In this document: positions 7,715 through 17,728 of the stretch, one piece after another
How positions within the stretch are numbered: the stretch's first letter is position 1
How the letters are laid out: each line of letters begins with the position of its first letter
Assembly: GCA_017548275.1 (NCBI GenBank)
Contig: JAFZAH010000016.1
Coordinates: forward strand, 1 to 60,950
Reading direction: 5' to 3'
DNA from: Prevotella sp.
Lineage (GTDB): Bacteria > Bacteroidota > Bacteroidia > Bacteroidales > Bacteroidaceae
Length of the DNA: 60,950 nucleotides
Program-made: the position numbers and the translations under genes
Notes under the pieces: generated by a model
Databases searched by the model: none
The model's input: only the letters and a program-made list of their open reading frames with translations
Told to the model about the DNA's origin: nothing

Positions 7715-8617
7715 TTATCCTCTTATCTTTGCCATCATCTTCCGTAAATGGCGGGAGGGCATGACAAGGAATAAGCGTTGGCGTATGGTCTTGCTGATAC
7801 CGGCACGGTCCATATCTTTGCATAGTTGCAAATAGAATGGACTATTGACCCAATCATTCCTTGACGAGCAAACAGCGACAGCAAAAAGATTGGCCATACG
7901 GTCTTCGATGGTGTCGGCGAGATAATCATTGCGCACAGCCTCAGGTATGGAGGTCCATCGGAAATGATTCAGGCGGGCAGCATAATCAGCCGTCCATACA
8001 AAGGCGTTGCTGGTGTGCTCCTCGCCTTTGTTATATACAGTTTTATAAACCACATTGACAGGTTTGTCGGTCGTAAACACCAGCCTGAGCCAGAAGATAT
8101 AATCCTCGCCATTGAGAATCTCACGCGGCAAATCGAAGAGATAGTCGCCGAGCACGCTGCGCCGGTACATGCTGCCCCAAGGCACCCCGATGGTCCCTAC
8201 CCCTCTGACGGCAAGATGACGGAAATCATCCATAGGTATGTATGCCCGGTTTTCTCCTGCCAATGTATGCCCGTTGCCAAACACGATATCGGTGTCGGCA
8301 GCAGTTTTCTCATACAGATCTCTCAGGCTGTTGACAGGCAAGGTATCGTCAGAATCGACGAAGCAGAGCCATTCTCCCTCAGCCCTTCTCACGCCGACGG
8401 CACGTGCCTCGGTGCGTCCTTTGTTGGGCTGATGTATCACCACCACACGCGGGTCGGTCTCAGCAGCATGGTCGCAGATGTCGCCCGACGCATCGGTTGA
8501 GCCGTCATCGACCAACACCAATTGCAGGTCGTCAAGCGACTGCGCCAAGATGCTGTCGATGCACGCCTGAACCGTGTCGGCAGACTGATAAACGGGAACG
8601 ACAACGGATACTTTCAT
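7715..8617 (-). CDS. Family 2 glycosyltransferase
   Basis: Transfers a sugar from a nucleotide donor to a growing surface glycan; the exact sugar cannot be told. The GT-A fold is clear from the N-terminal MKVSVVVPVYQSADTVQ, the nucleotide-binding LVLVDDGSTDASG, and the metal-binding FVDSDD near residue 93. The C-terminal third is basic (RQRLFLVMPSRHLRKMMAKI), typical of GT2 enzymes that sit on the inner membrane. Its ATG overlaps the stop codon of the upstream flippase gene by 4 bp, so the two are one minus-strand operon. Confidence 0.9.
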   Translation of the reverse strand: MKVSVVVPVYQSADTVQACIDSILAQSLDDLQLVLVDDGSTDASGDICDHAAETDPRVVVIHQPNKGRTEARAVGVRRAEGEWLCFVDSDDTLPVNSLRDLYEKTAADTDIVFGNGHTLAGENRAYIPMDDFRHLAVRGVGTIGVPWGSMYRRSVLGDYLFDLPREILNGEDYIFWLRLVFTTDKPVNVVYKTVYNKGEEHTSNAFVWTADYAARLNHFRWTSIPEAVRNDYLADTIEDRMANLFAVAVCSSRNDWVNSPFYLQLCKDMDRAGISKTIRQRLFLVMPSRHLRKMMAKIRG

Positions 8618-10104
8618 GATTTTTTACGCCAGATTTTTGCTTTGAGCGCCTCCCAAAGACGAGTCTTCGACTTGAGCACTTTGACGGAATACCATGTGCT
8701 GGCACCAATGAGCAAGATGCCGATGGCATAGGAGAGGTAACAGTTTCCGATGAACGTGGTGGCATAGGTCAATGCCCCCAATCCAATCTGCACCACAGCA
8801 TATTTTATCACGGGAACGGAAAGGCGGTAACGGTATTTGACACCGATGCAGACGTTGAGGATGATGAAATCAATGACAGACATCAGCGTGATGGCCAATC
8901 CCGCGCCCCACAGTCCGTGACGGCTGAATCCGAGTATGGTGAGCACGACCAGTCCGACTGCATAAATCGCCTCCATGATAAAATAGAAGAGGGAGTCGCC
9001 CCTTGCCAAAGGAATATACTGAACCGGCAGTTTGACAGCCCTGAAATAAAGCGCCAACAGGATGATTTGCACCATCGGTATCACCGAGTTAAAATCCGGG
9101 CTGTACAAAAGGGGTATGATGATAGGCATGAACACAATCATCGCCACCAACATGGGCGAGATGAGCAGGATAGACACCTCTATCTGACGGTTGACCACCT
9201 GATTGAGTTCCGCTCCCGCCTCCTTCACTGCAGAGAGCCTCGGGAAATAATCCGTCTCCATCGCCGCGAAGACGAGACTGGAATAGACGATGGCCAGCAT
9301 ATAACCGGCGTTGTAAAGACCAACGGTCTCAAGTGTGCCCGCCGTATTGAGGTACGACCTGATGAGGAACTCAGAGACATAACCCAGCGAGACCGCCGCA
9401 ACCAGACCGAGTCCCAACCGAATCATTCCCGCACCTTGGCCTATGGTCTTCTTCGAGAATGACAATGACAGGGGGATTCTCCGGTAAGAGAAAATCATGG
9501 CGAGCACCATCTGCACAAACGCGAGCAGGAAGATGGATGGCACGATACCCGCTTCGCCAAAGAAGAAATAGATAGGAACGGTGATAATCAACGCCATGAT
9601 GACGTGGTAGATGGACACACGCGCCAAGGCACGCAACTGACGTGTGGCTTTGAGCACGGCCATCTCGCCACCGGCGAGCGCCATGACCGCCACCACGGGC
9701 GAAAGCAATACAAAATGGAGCGTATGATTACCCCAGTTGAAGGTCCAGTCGTTGAGCCACGGACTGAGCACGGCACATATAACCATCCCTAAGACAGCAG
9801 CGATGACGCTCCATGTTCGAATCACACGAACCTTGTCGCGCAAACGTTGTTCGTCGCCCTCCTCGTATGCCGCCGACACATCGCGCACGGCACTGGTGGG
9901 GATGCCCAGTCCGGTGATTTCAGAAACCATACGGATGGTGGACTGAAACAACGTGATGAGTCCCATTCCCGCAGGTCCGAGAATGAGCGCCACCAATTTG
10001 TTGCGTATCAGTCCTACGAGGATAGATATCACCTGTACGCCGGCGAAGAGACCGGTGTATTTAACAACATGTGAATATTCCTCTTTGTGGTCCGTATTTT
10101 TCAT
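8614..10104 (-). CDS. Wzx-type oligosaccharide flippase
   Basis: A polytopic membrane protein of 496 residues with about 12-14 hydrophobic segments. The start (YTGLFAGVQVISILVGLIRNKLVALILGPAGMGLITLF) matches the polysaccharide transport/MOP superfamily, which flips undecaprenyl-linked O-antigen or exopolysaccharide units across the inner membrane. The downstream GT2 gene overlaps it by 4 bp. Together with the glycosyltransferases at 14.6-17.7 kb it suggests a surface-polysaccharide locus now interrupted by the DGR. The substrate is unknown. No clear -7 box lies directly upstream. Confidence 0.88.
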   Translation of the reverse strand: MKNTDHKEEYSHVVKYTGLFAGVQVISILVGLIRNKLVALILGPAGMGLITLFQSTIRMVSEITGLGIPTSAVRDVSAAYEEGDEQRLRDKVRVIRTWSVIAAVLGMVICAVLSPWLNDWTFNWGNHTLHFVLLSPVVAVMALAGGEMAVLKATRQLRALARVSIYHVIMALIITVPIYFFFGEAGIVPSIFLLAFVQMVLAMIFSYRRIPLSLSFSKKTIGQGAGMIRLGLGLVAAVSLGYVSEFLIRSYLNTAGTLETVGLYNAGYMLAIVYSSLVFAAMETDYFPRLSAVKEAGAELNQVVNRQIEVSILLISPMLVAMIVFMPIIIPLLYSPDFNSVIPMVQIILLALYFRAVKLPVQYIPLARGDSLFYFIMEAIYAVGLVVLTILGFSRHGLWGAGLAITLMSVIDFIILNVCIGVKYRYRLSVPVIKYAVVQIGLGALTYATTFIGNCYLSYAIGILLIGASTWYSVKVLKSKTRLWEALKAKIWRKKS

Positions 10105-10563
10105 ATTTTATATGAAAAGAACGGAAATTTCGCGGGTTTATTGTGTGGAGAGGGGGACAAAATAAGCCCCTCATCGAGGGGAGGGCGCAGTTACCAAAGA
10201 GAATGTCGTAAAACAACGGATTACACAGATTTCACGAATATCACACCACGATGTAGGGGCTTACTTTATTTCGGACAAAAATCAATAAAGGGCACCAGCC
10301 TGTTCTCCTCCAAAGGAGATAGGGGTGGTTTAAAAAAATGACGCAACTGATGAAATACCTTATACTCAATCAGTTTCATACCCCGCCCCTGCCCCGCCCC
10401 TTAAGGGGTGGGGAACTGGCTAACGCCCTTGAGATCGTTTGATATCATTTAGCGGACACCAATATTTCGCTATATATGAAGTAACTACTCCCCTCTCCCA
10501 TCGGAGAGGGATGGAACTTGAATGTTAGGGAGGAACTATGGTGAGAGGACTCTTTCTGTATGA
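10105..10563. other. Gene-free spacer rich in GC palindromes
   Basis: No convincing gene. It holds at least four short GC-rich inverted repeats of the dispersed family: around 10165-10180, 10305-10331, 10380-10420 (CCCCGCCCCTTAAGGGGTGGGG) and 10486-10512 (CCCTCTCCCATCGGAGAGGG). The DGR template RNA, transcribed leftward, would run into this region. Confidence 0.6.
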
Positions 10564-10586
10564 ACCTACTCAAGCCCTTCACCTAA

Positions 10587-10623
10587 ATACAATCGCCGCC
10601 ACGCCGGCGGTCGGGAATTGTAT
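10587..10623 (-). promoter_or_regulatory. Hairpin downstream of the DGR template repeat
   Basis: ATACAAT (10587-10593) pairs with ATTGTAT (10617-10623), and inside it CCGCC pairs with GGCGG around the ACGCC loop. It lies about 40 nt past the TR end in the direction of transcription. No T-run follows, so it may be a structural part of the template RNA rather than a terminator. Inferred. Confidence 0.45.
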
Positions 10624-10663
10624 CCTGTTCTCCCTCTTTCAGAACTATGCTGGCGAGGCAGGG

Positions 10664-10793
10664 CTATAAGGCGAGGCGCAACCCGAGGTTGTTGTTCGTG
10701 TTGTCGGGCGTGTTGTAGTTGCGGTTCGACACGCGACAGTTCTCGGCGTTGTTGTTCCAACTGCCGCCCCGGTTCACGCGGTTAGAGGCCTTG
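10664..10793 (-). repeat. DGR template repeat (TR)
   Basis: 130 bp that align without gaps to 12344-12473 (offset 1680). All 94 non-adenine positions (minus strand) are identical and all 24 differences fall on template adenines, the hallmark of adenine-specific DGR mutagenesis. Read in the target frame, the TR is rich in AAC (Asn) codons, giving blocks such as NNN before AEN and TNNN before LGLRLAL. AAC codons can mutate to many residues without giving stops. The 5' end of the TR (10782-10793) overlaps the last codons and stop of the reverse transcriptase. The first 25 bp on the plus-strand side (10664-10688) match the VR exactly, as expected for the initiation-of-homing region. Confidence 0.96.
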
Positions 10794-11795
10794 CGGATAC
10801 AATCCCTTTCGGCAGGTCATCTGTCTTTTGAACGGACTTGCCTCTGCCTTATCTATGAAAGCCATCATGCACGATGCGCGCATAGCGTATTGTTGTTGTG
10901 TGATGCTACCCTGCTCCACGTCAACCGTGAGCGAAGCCATCTTATGCACAAACCTTTTCCTGCTTCTGTTGTTAAGTCTCAGCCGATTATGATACACTAC
11001 ATATCCCAAAAAGGGAACGCCGAAACACGTTTTATTGATGACAGGTTCATGGAGAGACAACTGGAGATGCTCATTCGTGAACTTCGTCAGCGCAGTGACA
11101 TAACCTTTCAGTTGTTCGTTGTTATCAGCAAAGATGAGTATATCATCCATATATCTCACCATCGCCTTGATGCGCAGTTGCTCTTTGGCGAAATGGTCGG
11201 CCACAGCGAGATAATGATTGGCAAAATATTGCGAAGTAAGATTGCCTATGGGCAGCCCCCGCCCCGGCTCCACTTCGTAGCCCAGTATCAGGTCAGAGAA
11301 ATAACGGAGCAGCAGCGGGTCTTTGAACAAACGAGACAGTTGGCAGAAAAGGACATTATGGTCTATGCTGTCGAAATATTTACGAACATCCATTTTTGCA
11401 AACCATTTGTATTTGCGGCAACACTTCTTTGCTTGCTCCAATGCCTTGTATTGACCACGCCCCAGTCGCGATGCAAAACTGTCGTTGGTTTGGAAGTCAT
11501 CGAATACAGGATGACAAATGCGCATGATGGCATGAAAGGCCACCCTCTCGGGAAACGACGCGGCGCAGATGGTACGCTGTTTGGGGTCATAGATGGTAAA
11601 GAAGTGATACTGTCCGAAACGGAATGAGCCATCGGCAAGTTTACGGCCCATGTCAGCAAGATTCTCGTCGAGTTGCCTCCTAAACAGAATGACTGCCTTA
11701 CGGGTACATTTGCCCCTTGCCGCCCTGAGAAAAGCCTCGTGCAGATTTTCAAGACTGCATATCCTCGGCATCAGGTTGCCTGCCCGTTTCACCAT
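10782..11795 (-). CDS. DGR reverse transcriptase
   Basis: Copies the TR RNA into adenine-mutated cDNA that replaces the VR. Conserved RT blocks are visible in order: AAFPERVAFHAIM (about 78-91), the first metal-binding Asp in FAKMDVRKYFDSI (D136), the DGR-type box 4 GNLTSQ (184-189; retron and group II intron RTs have QG...SP here), the catalytic YMDD (215-218) and PFLGYVV (261-267). At 337 residues it has no maturase or endonuclease domain. The start at 11795 overlaps the HRDC gene by 47 bp; ATG 11771 is an alternative. The gene lies downstream of the target and accessory genes on the same strand, and its stop lies inside the TR. Confidence 0.95.
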   Translation of the reverse strand: MVKRAGNLMPRICSLENLHEAFLRAARGKCTRKAVILFRRQLDENLADMGRKLADGSFRFGQYHFFTIYDPKQRTICAASFPERVAFHAIMRICHPVFDDFQTNDSFASRLGRGQYKALEQAKKCCRKYKWFAKMDVRKYFDSIDHNVLFCQLSRLFKDPLLLRYFSDLILGYEVEPGRGLPIGNLTSQYFANHYLAVADHFAKEQLRIKAMVRYMDDILIFADNNEQLKGYVTALTKFTNEHLQLSLHEPVINKTCFGVPFLGYVVYHNRLRLNNRSRKRFVHKMASLTVDVEQGSITQQQYAMRASCMMAFIDKAEASPFKRQMTCRKGLYPQGL

Positions 11796-12228
11796 CTGTC
11801 ACCACAAAAAAAGATTCCACATAGTTCTTCAGTCTCGCAGGCGCTATTCCTTTCACGTCTTTCACCGTGTCGGCCCGCAATTCAGGCACACGTGCCAATG
11901 AAGCCAGTTCCTCGTTGGTGAAAACGGTGTATGCGGGAATGCCGTTGGCTGTTGAGATTTGTCGTCGAATGGTGCGGAAATGCTCAAAGCGGGCTTTCTC
12001 CTCTTCGCTCATTCCTGCCGTCACATCTTTGTCTCGCCTATGTGCGGGAGGTACCTCTGCCAACGGATTTTGGTCGGCATATTCCACCGCCACCGCCCAA
12101 TAGCCGCCGTTGTCAGGACAGAAATGCCGCTCGGTGGTCAGCACACGGTGCGAGCGGAGGAATTTGTTGAGTTCCTCTTCGCTTTGCGCACTGTCTAATA
12201 GTGATATCTTATAAAACTTGTATTGCAT
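11749..12228 (-). CDS. HRDC-domain DGR accessory protein
   Basis: 159 residues. The N-terminal half (1-60) has no fold I can name (MQYKFYKISLLDS, then GGYWAVAVEYAD). Residues about 78-142 look like an HRDC helical domain (RFEHFRTIRRQISTANGIPA, NEELASLARVPE, VKGIAPARLKNYVESF), a nucleic-acid-binding module of RecQ helicases and RNase D. HRDC proteins are known as DGR accessories in lineages lacking the Avd protein, so this one probably helps the RT bind RNA or the target during retrohoming. It sits between target and RT and overlaps the RT start. The accessory role is inferred from position and family precedent. Confidence 0.82.
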   Translation of the reverse strand: MQYKFYKISLLDSAQSEEELNKFLRSHRVLTTERHFCPDNGGYWAVAVEYADQNPLAEVPPAHRRDKDVTAGMSEEEKARFEHFRTIRRQISTANGIPAYTVFTNEELASLARVPELRADTVKDVKGIAPARLKNYVESFFVVTDGETGRQPDAEDMQS

Positions 12229-12255
12229 TTCAATATTTTTTTAATCGTCAATTCA

Positions 12256-12312
12256 CAGACCTATGCTCGTCGGCGGCCTTTTATATTTTGGCCGCCGTGC
12301 TCACACAGGTCT
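12256..12312 (-). promoter_or_regulatory. GC-rich hairpin just past the variable repeat
   Basis: CGGCGGCC (12271-12278) pairs perfectly with GGCCGCCG (12290-12297) around an 11-nt AT-only loop. An outer AGACCT/AGGTCT pair (12256-12261 with 12307-12312) extends it across a bulge. On the minus strand it starts about 31 nt beyond the target stop codon. In the Bordetella phage DGR a hairpin/cruciform at this place is needed for efficient target recognition. It lacks a terminator T-run. Role inferred by analogy. Confidence 0.65.
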
Positions 12313-12343
12313 CCGACTTGACAATCTGTTTTTTGAGGGAGAA

Positions 12344-12473
12344 CTATAAGGCGAGGCGCAACCCGAGGCCGTCGAACGTGCTGACGGGCGTGCCGCAGTA
12401 GCGGAGCGACACGCGACAGAGCCCGGCGTCGTCGTACCAACTGCCGCCCCGGGACACGCGGAAAGAGGCCTGG
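12344..12473 (-). repeat. DGR variable repeat (VR) at the 3' end of the kinase gene
   Basis: Gapless match to the TR at 10664-10793. It encodes the last 42 residues of the target. Sixteen residues from 627 to 658 differ from the TR translation (N627F, N630S, N636Y, N637D, N638D, E640G, N641L, N646L, N648Y, Y649C, N650G, D653V, N654S, N656F, N657D, N658G), plus K624Q at the edge. The constant scaffold RGGSW and LGLRLAL is that of C-type-lectin-fold DGR targets. Confidence 0.96.
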
Positions 12474-14341
12474 GTGTTGTTGCATGGGTTATTTTGTGGC
12501 GACTTGCCATAGTAGTTATCGTCATACCAGTCCTGGCACCACTCATACACGTTGCCGCTCATGTCGTAGAGACCTAACTCGTTGGGCGACTTCTTGGCAA
12601 CGGGATGAGTCTTACAGTTGTTTTCACTTAATTTGTCAAAACTCCAATTGCTATCATCCAACATCTGGTCTCCACTATTCTCGTAATACCATCCCACGGA
12701 TATCATGCTGTTTCCGCCCGCATATTTGGTGTGGTTGCTCTTGTTGCCGCCCCGTGCCGCGAACTCCCACTCCGCCTCGGTGGGCAGGCGGAACTCACGG
12801 CCTTCGGGCCGCTGACCCTCAGTCGCTGCGTTCAGTTTGCGGATGAATGACTGGCAATCGTCCCAAGACACCGTCTCCACAGGAAGGTCTTCACCCTTAA
12901 AATTCGACGGATTGCTGCCCATGACGGCCTTCCAAAGGGCTTGCGTCACCTCCGTCTCGCCGATGCTGTAGTCGGAGAGTGTCACTAGGTGGGCGGGGTT
13001 CTCGTCATCTCCTGCATCATTTCCCTGCTCGGAGGTTGCTCCCATGGTGAACGTGCCGCCCTCGACGGGCATCATATTGAATGAAATACCATCGACCGTA
13101 AAGGTTTGACCATCGAATTGTGCTGTCAGATTATCATCTTGTACTACTGTAGTAGAATCTGCGGATTTTCCTCCTGGTTTTAATATAAAGAACAAGATGC
13201 CCGCCAAGCATGCGACTGCAGCCAAGGCTATCCATAGTTTCTTCTTACTCGGTGACGGCGGCTCGTTGTCAGGCGTAGGGGCGGCGTCTTCGTGCTTGTC
13301 AACCCTGTTATCAGACCTTTCTTTTTGAAGGATTTGTGTCTCTTGACTCGCTTCCGCTCGTTCGGGCGGGCACGGGGGCACCGCCCCTACAGGTGAGGAG
13401 GGTTTCTTTGTCGTTTGTACAATAGTCGCATCATTTGAGGCATCATTATCCCTATTATCATTAGCCTTCAATAACTCCTTCATATCCTCCACATTTTGCG
13501 GACGCTTACGGGGCAAGGGATTCATCATCTTCGAAATGGCCTTGCGCATTTCCGTGCTCACACCATCGGGATAGTCGAACATACGACTGTCATCGTCAGT
13601 ATCATCGGGTTCCACCTCGGGCGGCCGCTCGCCTGTGAGCAGACTATAAAGCGTGGCGCCCACGGCGTAGAAGTCCGTCCACGGGCCAATGCTCTTCGTG
13701 CGCTGTCCCTCCTGTTCGATGGGCGCGTAGCCTGGCGTGTAGGCCATGCCCGACGCTGACAGCGAGGTGCGCTCCATGGCGCTCATCTGCTTCGACGCAC
13801 CGAAGTCGATGAGCGTGCAGTGGCCCTTCTTGTCTGTCATGATATTGCCGGGCTTCACATCCAGATGGTAGAAACCCGCCTTGTGGACGGCATCGAGCGC
13901 ATCGAGCAACTGGTCGGCCACATCCCTGACCTCTGTCTCGGTCATGGACTGCCGCTTCACACGGTCTTTGAGCGACTCGCCCTCGATGAAGTCCATGACA
14001 TAATATGACGTGCCGTTGGCATCAAAGAGGTCGATGACATGCACAATGTGGTCGTTGCGCATGTTGAAGATGCGCTGTGCCTCGCGCCGGAACTTGTTGA
14101 GTTGTTGGTCGAAGCCTTCCTGATTGGCGGCGTTGCTCACCAATACGGTGCTGTGATCCTCGGCGCGATGGTTGGTGCCGCGCATGAAGAACTCTTTCAC
14201 CGCCACATTGCTGTTGAAACGTGTGTCGAAAGCCATGTAGGTATTGCCGAAACCGCCCGAAGCGAGGTATTTTTCAATGCGGTAACGACCGTCGAGCATC
14301 GTGCCGACGGGGAGCATCTGAGATGAGGAAAAATCTGCCAT
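12344..14341 (-). CDS. Membrane Ser/Thr kinase with DGR-diversified FGE-sulfatase/C-type-lectin domain
   Basis: A 665-residue fusion. Residues 15-290 form a eukaryotic-like protein kinase: glycine loop ASGGFGNTY (27-35), VAVK with Lys49, catalytic loop HLDVKPGNIM (Asp161; HLD instead of HRD), DFG (179-181) and the YTPGYAPIEQ activation-segment end. Residues 291-367 are a low-complexity linker, and 369-387 a single transmembrane helix (WIALAAVACLAGILFFIL) after three lysines. Residues 420-665 are an FGE-sulfatase-type domain (MVPVEGG-like start, FRLPTEAEWEFAARGG, GLYDMSGNVYEWCQDWY, RGGSWYDDAG) whose end is the VR. The lysines and helix put the kinase in the cytoplasm and the variable domain outside the inner membrane. 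It is probably a ligand-binding domain, not an active formylglycine-generating enzyme. The ligand and the kinase substrate are unknown. Confidence 0.95.
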   Translation of the reverse strand: MADFSSSQMLPVGTMLDGRYRIEKYLASGGFGNTYMAFDTRFNSNVAVKEFFMRGTNHRAEDHSTVLVSNAANQEGFDQQLNKFRREAQRIFNMRNDHIVHVIDLFDANGTSYYVMDFIEGESLKDRVKRQSMTETEVRDVADQLLDALDAVHKAGFYHLDVKPGNIMTDKKGHCTLIDFGASKQMSAMERTSLSASGMAYTPGYAPIEQEGQRTKSIGPWTDFYAVGATLYSLLTGERPPEVEPDDTDDDSRMFDYPDGVSTEMRKAISKMMNPLPRKRPQNVEDMKELLKANDNRDNDASNDATIVQTTKKPSSPVGAVPPCPPERAEASQETQILQKERSDNRVDKHEDAAPTPDNEPPSPSKKKLWIALAAVACLAGILFFILKPGGKSADSTTVVQDDNLTAQFDGQTFTVDGISFNMMPVEGGTFTMGATSEQGNDAGDDENPAHLVTLSDYSIGETEVTQALWKAVMGSNPSNFKGEDLPVETVSWDDCQSFIRKLNAATEGQRPEGREFRLPTEAEWEFAARGGNKSNHTKYAGGNSMISVGWYYENSGDQMLDDSNWSFDKLSENNCKTHPVAKKSPNELGLYDMSGNVYEWCQDWYDDNYYGKSPQNNPCNNTQASFRVSRGGSWYDDAGLCRVSLRYCGTPVSTFDGLGLRLAL

Positions 14342-14366
14342 GATAGATAGATTATGGTTGGTGATG

Positions 14367-14398
14367 CAAAGATAAAGAATAAAAAAGGAATAAACAAA
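14367..14398 (-). promoter_or_regulatory. Promoter of the DGR kinase gene
   Basis: On the minus strand, TTTG (14395-14398), a 20-bp spacer and TATCTTTG (14367-14374) match the consensus. The ATG at 14341 is about 25 nt past the -7 box. The whole DGR cassette down to the TR could be read from here. Confidence 0.75.
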
Positions 14399-14594: not shown

Positions 14595-15530
14595 ATGAAA
14601 CTGAGTATCGTGATACCTGTGTATAACGCGGAGGCGACGTTGGAGCGTTGTCTGGAGAGTGTGTTGTCGCAGAATTACGATGACTACGAACTGATATTGG
14701 TGGATGACGGTTCGACCGACGGTTCACCCGCTATTTGCGACGATTATGCCGTAGGGCGTCCGTATATCAATGTCATCCATCAGCGCAATACCGGACTGTC
14801 GGCAGCCCGAAATGCCGGCATCGCGGCTGCGCGCGGTGAATACATCACCTTCATCGACAGCGACGACCTGTTGGCCGACTACACACTGGCTGTGCTGATG
14901 ACACGTCTTGGTGCCCATCCCGACCTCGACATTTTGGAATTTCCGGTGTGGTGGCATTGGGGCGATGAAGACCAGCGACTGTTGACTTTCGGTGTACATG
15001 AATACCACGACATGCGTGAATACTGGTTGGACTGCAAGGCCTACACCCATGCATACGTGTGGAACAAAATCTTCCGCCGCGAACTGTTTGACAAGGTGCG
15101 TTTCCCCGTGGGACGCGTGTTTGAAGACGTTCAGACCCTGCCGTTGCTGTTGGAGGAAGCCCGCACGGTGGGAACGACCGAGGAGGGAGCATACTGCTAT
15201 GTGCTGAACAACGACGGCATCACACAAAACGCATCTGGTGAGGAACTGACATGGCTGCTCGAGGCTCACGTGTCGCAACTGAAGAAACTGGGGCTGACCG
15301 AACGTGCTTCGGAGTATTACGCACATGTGCTGAATATACAGATTGACGTATATGACCAGACGAGAGACAACCTCATTCTGCCAGAGTTGGACGACCTGAC
15401 CCACCGCGACATCCGCCATCTGCCGGTGAATCGTAAGATGCGTCGCAAGATGCATTTACTCAAGACATTAGGACTGAAACATTTATGCCAACTGATGAGA
15501 TGCTTCCACAAACTGAGACGACGCCGCTGA
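14595..15530 (+). CDS. Family 2 glycosyltransferase
   Basis: 311 residues. A GT-A enzyme using a nucleotide sugar: MKLSIVIPVYNAEATLERCL, LILVDDGSTDGSPAICD, the NTGLSAARNAGI acceptor-side motif and the metal-binding TFIDSDD near residue 93. FEDVQTLPLLLEEA fits the (E)ED catalytic region of this family. The basic tail (NRKMRRKMHLLKTLGLKHL) suggests membrane association. First gene of a three-glycosyltransferase plus-strand cluster, divergent from the DGR. It overlaps the next gene by 46 bp. Sugar specificity cannot be predicted from the sequence alone. Confidence 0.92.
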   Translation: MKLSIVIPVYNAEATLERCLESVLSQNYDDYELILVDDGSTDGSPAICDDYAVGRPYINVIHQRNTGLSAARNAGIAAARGEYITFIDSDDLLADYTLAVLMTRLGAHPDLDILEFPVWWHWGDEDQRLLTFGVHEYHDMREYWLDCKAYTHAYVWNKIFRRELFDKVRFPVGRVFEDVQTLPLLLEEARTVGTTEEGAYCYVLNNDGITQNASGEELTWLLEAHVSQLKKLGLTERASEYYAHVLNIQIDVYDQTRDNLILPELDDLTHRDIRHLPVNRKMRRKMHLLKTLGLKHLCQLMRCFHKLRRRR

Positions 15531-16462
15531 TCAGTTTTGTGATTACGACCTACAACCTGCCCCCCTCGTTGTTGCGTGAGTGTCTGGACAGTGTCATGGC
15601 TCTGCCTCTGAGTGATGCGGAGCGTGAGATTGTGCTTGTTGACGACGGGTCGGAACATTCGCCCATGCCAGAATTGAGCGACTATGCCGACCACATCCTA
15701 TATATCCGCAAACAGAATGGTGGCCAAAGCACTGCGCGCAACACCGGCATCCATTGTTGTCACGGCACTTACATCCAGTTTATCGACGGCGATGACCTGC
15801 TCATCAGCGACGTCTATGCGCAATGTATCGGTCTTCTCCGCCGGGAGTCGCCTGACATGGTGTTGTGGCGCTACTCCGACAAGCCCGAGAATGATGTGGC
15901 GGTAAGTTTTGAGGGACCTCAGGAGGGTGCGGAGTACATGCGCCACTACAATCTGCGTGTGGGCCCCGGCGGATATGTGTTCCGCAAATCGCTCTTGATG
16001 GGGTTGCGTTTCCGCGAGGGCATCATCATGGAAGACGAGGAGTTCACACCTTTGTTGTTCTTGCGTGTGGAGCGCCTGTTCTTCACCGACGCGAAAGCCT
16101 ATTATTACCGCCAACGCGAGGGCTCGACCATGCACAAACGCGACTCCGGATGGATAGAAAAACGGTTGGACAACACACTCACGGTGTTGTTGAACCTGCA
16201 AGAAAAGGCCGACCGTATGCCTTACGCCGACCGCGAAGCCTTACAACGGCGCATCGACCAGTTGACCATGGACTATGTGTATAACATCATGACGCTGACA
16301 GGCGACCAACAGTGTCTGGAAGAACGGGTAAGTGTGCTGCATGAGCACGGGCTCTTCCCCCTGCCCGACCGCGATTACACCACGAAATACAAGTGGTTTC
16401 GCAGGATGACGAAAACGGCAACAGGCAGAAAGTTCGTGATGAGAATCTTGTTTAAACAGTGA
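15485..16462 (+). CDS. Family 2 glycosyltransferase
   Basis: 325 residues. Shows LISFVITTYNLPPSLLRECL, EIVLVDDGSEHSPMPE, NGGQSTARNTGI and FIDGDDLL, the ordered GT2 donor and metal motifs (DGD replaces the usual DSD). MEDEEFTPLLFLRV is the likely catalytic-base region. The start at 15485 lies inside the previous gene; ATG 15500 is an alternative, and either keeps the overlap, so translation is probably coupled. It is presumably the second sugar transferase of the same surface-glycan pathway. A palindromic repeat follows the stop codon. Confidence 0.9.
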   Translation: MPTDEMLPQTETTPLISFVITTYNLPPSLLRECLDSVMALPLSDAEREIVLVDDGSEHSPMPELSDYADHILYIRKQNGGQSTARNTGIHCCHGTYIQFIDGDDLLISDVYAQCIGLLRRESPDMVLWRYSDKPENDVAVSFEGPQEGAEYMRHYNLRVGPGGYVFRKSLLMGLRFREGIIMEDEEFTPLLFLRVERLFFTDAKAYYYRQREGSTMHKRDSGWIEKRLDNTLTVLLNLQEKADRMPYADREALQRRIDQLTMDYVYNIMTLTGDQQCLEERVSVLHEHGLFPLPDRDYTTKYKWFRRMTKTATGRKFVMRILFKQ

Positions 16463-16491
16463 CTGAAGGAGAAGGCGTTAATGCGTTAATA

Positions 16492-16530
16492 AGCCACCCC
16501 TGCCCCTCCTTAAAAAGGAGGGGAGTGGCT
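16492..16530. repeat. GC-rich palindromic repeat
   Basis: CCCCTCCTT-AAAA-AGGAGGGG flanked by AGCCAC/GTGGCT, giving a long inverted repeat in the gap between two glycosyltransferase genes. Without a T-run it belongs with the dispersed palindromes. Confidence 0.55.
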
Positions 16531-16561
16531 GGCGCCATCGAAAATACGAGATACGAAGTAT

Positions 16562-16604
16562 CCTAAACCTCAAATCTCAAACCTCAAACCTCAAATCTCA
16601 AACC
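16562..16604. repeat. CTCAAAY minisatellite
   Basis: About six tandem 7-bp units CTCAAA(C/T) lie directly before the glycosyltransferase start at 16613, taking the place of a normal leader. Confidence 0.6.
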
Positions 16605-16612
16605 AAGAGTAG

Positions 16613-17728
16613 ATGTCAAAGATACTGCTGATAGGCGAATACAGTAATGTTCACGCAACGCTGGCCGAGGGTCTGAAGACGCTTGGCCATGAGGTGACCG
16701 TGCTGTCGAACGGCGATTTCTGGAAGGACTATCCCCGCGATATCGACCTAGTGCGCCGTCCCGGCAAGATTGGCGGCATCGCCTATATGACACGTCTCTA
16801 CCGTCTGCTGCCCCGATTACGCGGTTATGATGTGGTGCAAGTCATCAATCCGATGTTCTTGGAAATAAAAGCACACCGCATCCTACCTGTTTACAAGTAT
16901 TTGCGCCGGCATAACAAAAAAGTGCTGATGGGAGCCTTCGGCATGGATTACTATTGGGTGAACGAATGTGTGACCCGCCGTCCGCTGCGCTACAGCGATT
17001 TCAATATCGGCGACACACTACGCACCGATGCCGACGCCATGAGAGAGCGCAACGACTGGACAGGCACCGACAAGGAACGACTGAACCGCTATATCGCAGA
17101 AGACTGCGACGGCATTGTGGCCGGACTCTATGAATACTGGGTATGCTATCAACCGCATTTCCCCGAAAAGACAGTGTTCATACCCTACCCCATCACCACA
17201 GAAACGACGCCAGACATGGTAGCGCCTGTACACCATCCTTTGCGGCTGTTCATCGGCATCAACCGTGAACGCAGCACCTATAAAGGCACCGACATCATGC
17301 TTCGCGCCGCCGAAAAGGTGGTGGCAGCGCATCCGGGCGAGGTGGTGCTGGAGAAAGCCGAATCAGTGCCTTTTGCACAATATCAGGAGATGATGAACGG
17401 CAGCGACGTGATACTCGACCAGTTGTACAGTTACACCCCGTCGATGAACTCACTTCTCGCCATGTCGAAAGGCATCGTGTGTGTCGGTGGGGGCGAGGAG
17501 GAACACTATGAATTGCTGGGAGAACACGAATTACGCCCCATCGTGAATGTGGAACCGACGGAGGAGAGTGTCATTGTGGCTCTGGAGCGATTAGTGACCC
17601 ACCCTGAAGAGGTGACACGGTTGAAACGCGAGAGTGTAGAATACATCCTCCGCCATCATGAATATCAAAAAGTGGCAAAAAAATGGACACAATACGTTGA
17701 ACATGGAACGTTGAACGTGGAACATTGA
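16613..17728 (+). CDS. GT-B fold glycosyltransferase (family 4-like)
   Basis: 371 residues. The N-terminal Rossmann start (MSKILLIGEYSNVHATLAEGLKTLG) followed by a C-terminal nucleotide-sugar half (RLFIGINRERSTYKGTDIMLRAAEKV; DVILDQLYSYTPSMNSLLAMSKG) indicates a GT-B enzyme. The loop around GGGEEEHYELLGE occupies the place of the family's EXFGXXXXE-like motif. It is third in the plus-strand glycosyltransferase cluster. The last eleven codons (YVEHGTLNVEH) are encoded by a heptanucleotide repeat array, so the natural C-terminus has been replaced or extended by the repeat. Confidence 0.82.
   Translation: MSKILLIGEYSNVHATLAEGLKTLGHEVTVLSNGDFWKDYPRDIDLVRRPGKIGGIAYMTRLYRLLPRLRGYDVVQVINPMFLEIKAHRILPVYKYLRRHNKKVLMGAFGMDYYWVNECVTRRPLRYSDFNIGDTLRTDADAMRERNDWTGTDKERLNRYIAEDCDGIVAGLYEYWVCYQPHFPEKTVFIPYPITTETTPDMVAPVHHPLRLFIGINRERSTYKGTDIMLRAAEKVVAAHPGEVVLEKAESVPFAQYQEMMNGSDVILDQLYSYTPSMNSLLAMSKGIVCVGGGEEEHYELLGEHELRPIVNVEPTEESVIVALERLVTHPEEVTRLKRESVEYILRHHEYQKVAKKWTQYVEHGTLNVEH

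Follow-up and report, generated by a model that had tools for sequence, protein, structure and literature searches.

Positions 1 to 60,950 of contig JAFZAH010000016.1 from a Prevotella sp. related to rumen strains (GenBank assembly GCA_017548275.1), a stretch of 60,950 nucleotides hereafter called the window, were found to harbor a chromosomal diversity-generating retroelement (DGR) whose predicted target is a membrane-spanning Ser/Thr kinase. In the reading that we favor, to which we assign a probability of about 0.6 as a whole, the DGR would diversify the C-terminal lectin-fold domain of this kinase, the variable domain would bind some molecule in the periplasm, and binding would alter the activity or the oligomeric state of the cytosolic kinase. 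Judging from the sequence, it is also rather probable that the variable domain acts as a ligand sensor for the kinase. If true, DGRs would alter what triggers transmembrane signaling, beyond what the cell binds, and this would extend DGR-varied signaling outside the cyanobacteria to a common gut and rumen genus. Random rewriting of a patch on the kinase could let the bacterium try new detection specificities. Being small (four parts within 3.8 kb), carrying its own putative promoter and offering a kinase output that can be measured, the system would make the question of whether DGRs evolve sensors directly testable.

A complete DGR with signs of recent activity

Direct repeats of at least 30 nt in the region formed a single family, 137 nt long and with an offset of 1680. 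Repeat alignment placed its core on the minus strand as a template repeat (TR) at 10664-10791 and a variable repeat (VR) at 12344-12471, the latter covering the final 42 codons of the kinase gene, stop included. Over these 128 bp, with 35 TR adenines, there were 23 mismatches, all of which (23/23) fell at TR adenines (10 A>T, 10 A>G and 3 A>C); the probability of this outcome, had the mismatches been randomly placed, is 6.0e-17. The preliminary description of this DNA had reported 130 bp with 24 differences, all at TR adenines, and 94 matching non-A positions, which is an equally valid longer stretch obtained by adding A10792 (changed) and position 10793 (unchanged). None of the 93 non-A TR positions, 42 of them third codon positions, was altered in the VR; with no drift at these positions, the VR appears to have been rewritten recently relative to ordinary divergence. 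Sixteen kinase residues differ from the template, namely 627, 630, 636-638, 640, 641, 646, 648-650, 653, 654 and 656-658. Thirteen of the corresponding codons are AAC in the TR, none of the sixteen is able to mutate to a stop, and together they permit approximately 1.25e17 combinations. The kinase was the only clear DGR target within its genome.

The remaining components were found on the same strand. According to the open reading frame (ORF) list, the genes for the kinase (12344-14341, 665 aa), an HRDC-domain accessory protein (11749-12228, 159 aa) and a DGR-type reverse transcriptase (RT; 10782-11795, 337 aa) all lie on the minus strand, as does the TR. The HRDC gene overlaps the start of the RT gene, and the TR overlaps its last bases. 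Pfam identified RVT_1 in the RT (2.3e-17), which also carries the motifs GNLTSQ and YMDD, and HRDC in the accessory (5.5e-08), so that ORFs and Pfam together bear out the earlier account of target, accessory, RT and TR on one strand. The closest solved relative of the RT was 8ub7 (2e-41), which we take to be the BPP-1 DGR RT, followed by a group II intron RT (2.6e-18).

Just past the VR, between it and the HRDC gene, DNA folding predicted a nested hairpin on the minus strand (12244-12325) with the core CGGCGGCC-11 nt-GGCCGCCG at 12271-12297. Its z-score was -6.08, and none of 200 shuffles was equally stable. The 124 nt following the TR contained no perfect stem of at least 6 bp (loop 3-14). 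In BPP-1, a hairpin after the VR is required for efficient homing (PMC3240598). That hairpin has a shorter loop and lies nearer to the VR, whereas the one in the window is larger-looped and more distant, and the analogy is therefore only partial. Taken together, the sequence makes it almost certain that the DGR is complete and has recently been active.

Upstream of the kinase gene, a pattern match to a Bacteroidota-type promoter, TTTG-N20-TATCTTTG, was found at 14367-14398 on the minus strand, ending approximately 25 bp upstream of the kinase start codon. The pattern TTTG-N18 to 21-TANNTTTG had nine exact matches in the window, with 0.49 expected, and none of 100 shuffles reached nine.

Architecture and topology of the target

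Pfam identified a Pkinase domain at residues 20-282 of the target (3.9e-36) and an FGE-sulfatase domain at residues 423-664 (2.7e-51), FGE standing for formylglycine-generating enzyme. The motifs VAVK, HLDVKPGN and DFG are present, and the profile is that of a Hanks-type Ser/Thr kinase with predicted activity. The VR lies at the C-terminus, within the FGE domain, which was modeled as a DGR C-type-lectin fold. The sole hydrophobic stretch was a putative membrane helix, called from hydropathy only, in which the best 19-residue segment starts at residue 369 (approximately 369-387) and has a mean Kyte-Doolittle value of 2.76; the next best reached 0.75. Pfam and hydropathy thus agree with the receptor-type order of kinase, one transmembrane helix and FGE/C-type-lectin domain given previously.

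Since the kinase must be cytosolic and the helix is single, the variable domain would lie beyond the inner membrane. Prevotella has a two-membrane envelope with an outer membrane, and a kinase-in topology consequently has the variable domain facing the periplasm instead of the cell surface. It is very probable, on sequence grounds, that the kinase is cytosolic and the variable domain periplasmic. The preliminary description had proposed that hypermutation rewrites the external sensor of a signaling kinase. The complete DGR, the signs of recent homing, the one-helix kinase target and the location of the VR in a modeled lectin fold lend this proposal partial support; the word external does not hold, the domain being predicted to be periplasmic.

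Some observations weigh against the favored reading. The two flanks of the helix differ little in charge, with KKK immediately before it and two K after, and the topology assignment rests on hydropathy together with the requirement of a kinase for the cytosol. Furthermore, a paralogous kinase-FGE protein encoded on C27 of the same genome lacks a membrane helix (best segment 0.88), which implies that FGE domains of this family can function in the cytosol. The two-membrane envelope also restricts what a periplasmic domain can meet.

The FGE domain shares the fold of formylglycine-generating enzyme, while the enzymatic function itself is unlikely from the sequence. In an alignment with the S. coelicolor enzyme, the active-site cysteine pair was not present in the target: the first active-site Cys aligned with D637, a diversified residue, and the second with C642. 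Titles of structure matches to this domain named human C336 and C341 mutants, which we take to be the catalytic pair of the enzyme.

As a separate observation, the catalytic loop reads HLD instead of HRD in the window kinase (12347-14341) and in its C2, C27 and C35 paralogues. Non-RD kinases are common among plant immune receptors.

Comparison with known systems

Sensor kinases diversified by DGRs had already been proposed for cyanobacteria, where DGR targets with a kinase-lectin architecture are found and DGR variation was suggested in 2020 to retune kinase activation (PMC7517822). As in the window, these targets have an N-terminal kinase and a C-terminal DGR-variable lectin fold, for which ligand control of the kinase was considered. 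The cyanobacterial variable proteins are mostly predicted to be cytosolic, a few having membrane or signal segments; the window differs in phylum, in the helix between the domains and in its location in a polysaccharide cluster. In Thiohalocapsa PB-PSB1, PMC10907252 lists Pkinase among the DGR target domains and some lectin domains as predicted periplasmic. Multi-domain, sensor-like targets are shared with the window, whereas those described there belong mainly to MoxR- and STAND-type conflict systems. The DGR of Treponema denticola shares an HRDC accessory that overlaps the RT, and its variable protein TvpA (structure 2y3c) is of the FGE type, with the same fold as the window target. It differs in that the accessory is located between TR and RT and in that the target is TvpA-like, with no kinase mentioned in the available portion of PMC4891356. 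The word "kinase" is absent from the main text of a global DGR survey (PMC8144416), and a search of the open-license literature found no Bacteroidota DGR target of the kinase-helix-FGE form, a result that leaves absence unproven.

Cassette relatives and the origin of the kinase target

Scanning 84,980 species, one genome each, with the RT yielded 146 confirmed relatives; the best 80 of these were retained. All 80 loci contained an HRDC homologue, and 68 had a TR/VR pair. From these 68 loci, 81 ORFs of at least 130 aa that bear a VR were obtained (five shorter ORFs were left out). Among the resulting 82 target proteins, window included, FGE was found in 80, NACHT in nine and Pkinase in two; the two targets lacking FGE are probably false VR calls.

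The nearest RT relatives, eleven loci from Prevotella and other Bacteroidales (L058-L068), have RTs 52-66% identical to that of the window. In all eleven the HRDC gene ends at or inside the RT start, and the TR has the same pattern as in the window in those loci whose TR was displayed. A VR was located in ten of them (none in L060), always in an FGE protein without a kinase. By eye, nine of these ten loci have targets that start like signal-bearing proteins or lipoproteins, and L068 lacks its 5' end. GC stems with A-rich loops, similar to the hairpin described above, occur behind the target gene in L058, L061, L062 and L067; in L059 the stem is 6 bp long, and the same scan found none in L064 and L068. 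In the 67 loci examined, a stem of at least 7 bp was found in 23, compared to 34 of 670 shuffles.

The second Pkinase-bearing target was that of the Lewinellaceae locus L118 (CANHEE010000169.1). It has the same order of kinase, helix and FGE, but its RT and FGE are on distant branches, and the 5' end of the gene is missing from the contig. In a 37-row RT tree (the window plus 36 of the 80 loci), an approximately unbiased (AU) test rejected the window and L118 RTs as sisters (p 2.5e-42). Given non-sister RTs and FGE domains far apart, a kinase was probably recruited twice within the cassette family. Overall, the targets of this family comprise secreted proteins, proteins of the NACHT type and, in two cases, membrane kinases.

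With the VR excluded, the window FGE grouped with the C2 and C27 kinase-FGEs of its own genome in a 68-row tree (support 99/86) and in a smaller tree of 39 of these rows (90/82, not starred), from which 29 FGE rows, i.e. five outlying groups and others, had been left out. Pairwise AU tests rejected it as sister of the target FGEs of L138 (p 8e-6), L020 (0.0015) and L064 (0.0056). Constraining it with the target FGEs of 11 relatives gave an AU p of 4.5e-71, which is uninformative because those 11 do not form a natural group. It is likely, though not certain, that the window FGE groups with those of the C2 and C27 kinases and not with the targets of near cassettes. The simplest history, for which support is moderate, would be the capture of a host kinase gene by a DGR cassette. 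A phage origin was considered and rejected: a search of viral_contigs gave 71 RT pattern matches with no confirmed relative of the RT among them, and no match to the VR pattern; phage records matched the RT in 136 instances, every one at less than 60% identity. A kinase-FGE gene was also seen on an Acaryochloris plasmid, with no RT gene annotated within the 18 kb shown, for which the gene table is incomplete.

Alternative explanations

The variable domain could instead dock onto an adjacent envelope protein and so choose the target of phosphorylation, with no free ligand involved. This would have the same anatomy and was offered as an alternative for the cyanobacterial kinase targets (PMC7517822), and the FGE-fold relatives include PorK, a structural ring component of the type IX secretion system. 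On the other hand, since the helix keeps the variable domain apart from substrates in the cytosol, only membrane partners could be selected, and we regard docking as unlikely.

Less likely still is an invader-detecting kinase, in which the hypermutable domain recognizes molecules of phages or rivals that enter the periplasm and the kinase then sets off protection or suicide of the cell. The top defense-library matches of the target were the MAD6 and PD-T4-6 kinases (7.4e-47 and 5.9e-46), NACHT is present among the cassette-family targets (9/82, as above), and FGE domains with DGRs have been proposed as invader sensors (PMC8195603 and PMC10907252). The kinase domain accounts for the best defense matches; some continue across the helix to approximately residue 400, but none reached the variable domain among the matches listed, and they may therefore reflect kinase kinship only. 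The neighbors read are polysaccharide and housekeeping-type genes, on which no defense-library search was made.

A system that copied in the past and now leaves the protein with a fixed domain seems improbable. The kinase-DGR unit comes from one genome only, with no conspecific sequence in the collections searched, which contain a single genome per species, and a congener remnant (L226, see below) kept its TR with no RT in view; the unaltered non-A positions and the seemingly intact RT, HRDC gene and hairpin speak against inactivity.

Ordinary FGE paralogy misread as a TR/VR pair is refuted by the non-A counts: six FGE genes in five congener genomes without an RT match at 1e-30 (two of which have weaker RT matches) match the TR at 70-76% DNA identity, but they differ at 14-17 non-A positions, in addition to 15-18 A positions, compared to 0/93 for the VR.

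Genomic neighborhood

The favored reading, i.e. a DGR-diversified membrane kinase responding to periplasmic ligands, can be placed in a genomic context of surface polysaccharide genes. Downstream on the minus strand are a polysaccharide flippase-like gene (8614-10104; Polysacc_synt_3 and Polysacc_synt) and a family-2 glycosyltransferase identified by Pfam (7715-8617). Divergent from the kinase, on the plus strand at 14595-17728, are two further family-2 glycosyltransferases (Pfam) and a third glycosyltransferase-like protein that fell below the cut-offs. Of 200 genomes of the genus, 170 contain a match to the flippase-like gene at E <= 1e-60. Among 12 fetched examples from the genus, the flippase lay 45-359 bp from an orthologue of the glycosyltransferase at 14595-15530 in six, two had other genes in between, and four lacked this orthologue as a neighbor at the threshold used. 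In the window, the two genes are 4.5 kb apart and the gap is filled by the kinase-DGR unit. In two congeners, the same gap (L209 8554-12576 and L211 8523-12462) holds two glycoside-hydrolase-like genes each, as judged by eye, which suggests an insertion-prone spot.

The location of kinase and DGR inside such a cluster raises the guess that the output bears on envelope polysaccharide. The C2 paralogue is also situated in a polysaccharide locus, with matches to a flippase, EpsG, a family-4 glycosyltransferase, an acyltransferase and Wzi adjoining. By eye, the surroundings of the C23, C27 and C35 kinases are unlike polysaccharide loci. Thus two of the five kinases of the genome whose surroundings were read (window and C2) are in such loci and three are not, which makes the link suggestive only; the surroundings were mostly judged by eye, for five kinase genes, with three weaker kinase matches left out. 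That the kinase controls envelope polysaccharide is accordingly doubtful. Tentatively, a DGR could have moved onto a host membrane receptor kinase in a polysaccharide cluster, yielding a receptor whose periplasmic recognition surface is reshuffled within a lineage and which controls the cell's own envelope coat; this would be the bacterial counterpart of a somatically varied signaling receptor, and would have arisen at least twice in this DGR clade.

The C2 paralogue and cassette remnants

The C2 paralogue is 76% identical to the window kinase across the whole protein and has a helix (1.95). Between its VR-like end and the TR, identity is 77%, with 19 differences at A and 12/93 at non-A positions (11 over a slightly shifted stretch). 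With this non-A count, similar to that of the FGE genes without a close RT, it was rejected as a second live target. Third codon positions account for nine of the 12 non-A changes, which is compatible with an old target or a plain paralogue, and an old DGR target is possible. The stem after the VR-like end is a palindrome, CCCTCTCC-N3 to 5-GGAGAGGG, which occurs 25 times in the genome, one copy being at 10491-10510 of the window, while a reversed control pattern had none; CCCTCTCC/GGAGAGGG is an intergenic repeat family.

In L226 (G385:C24, 1501-1624), a TR was found directly after a sequence matching the first 46 HRDC residues. Its 3.1-kb locus contains no RT match, nor does its genome at 1e-30. 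From its sequence, L226 reads as a deleted cassette that retained the TR. Another possible remnant is a short fragment matching RT residues 2-33 only, located close behind a second FGE gene (G009:C2:135545-136530).

Distant RTs were also seen in two congeners (L050 and L051, in G113 and G133), beside phage-like genes and, by eye, candidate lectin-like targets; these are probably prophage DGRs. Lastly, in L054 (G125:C12:58500-69500) a 757-aa RT protein lies next to one of 730 aa that carries an R-X4-H motif; by eye, the two resemble an RT-Cas1 fusion and Cas13b, respectively.

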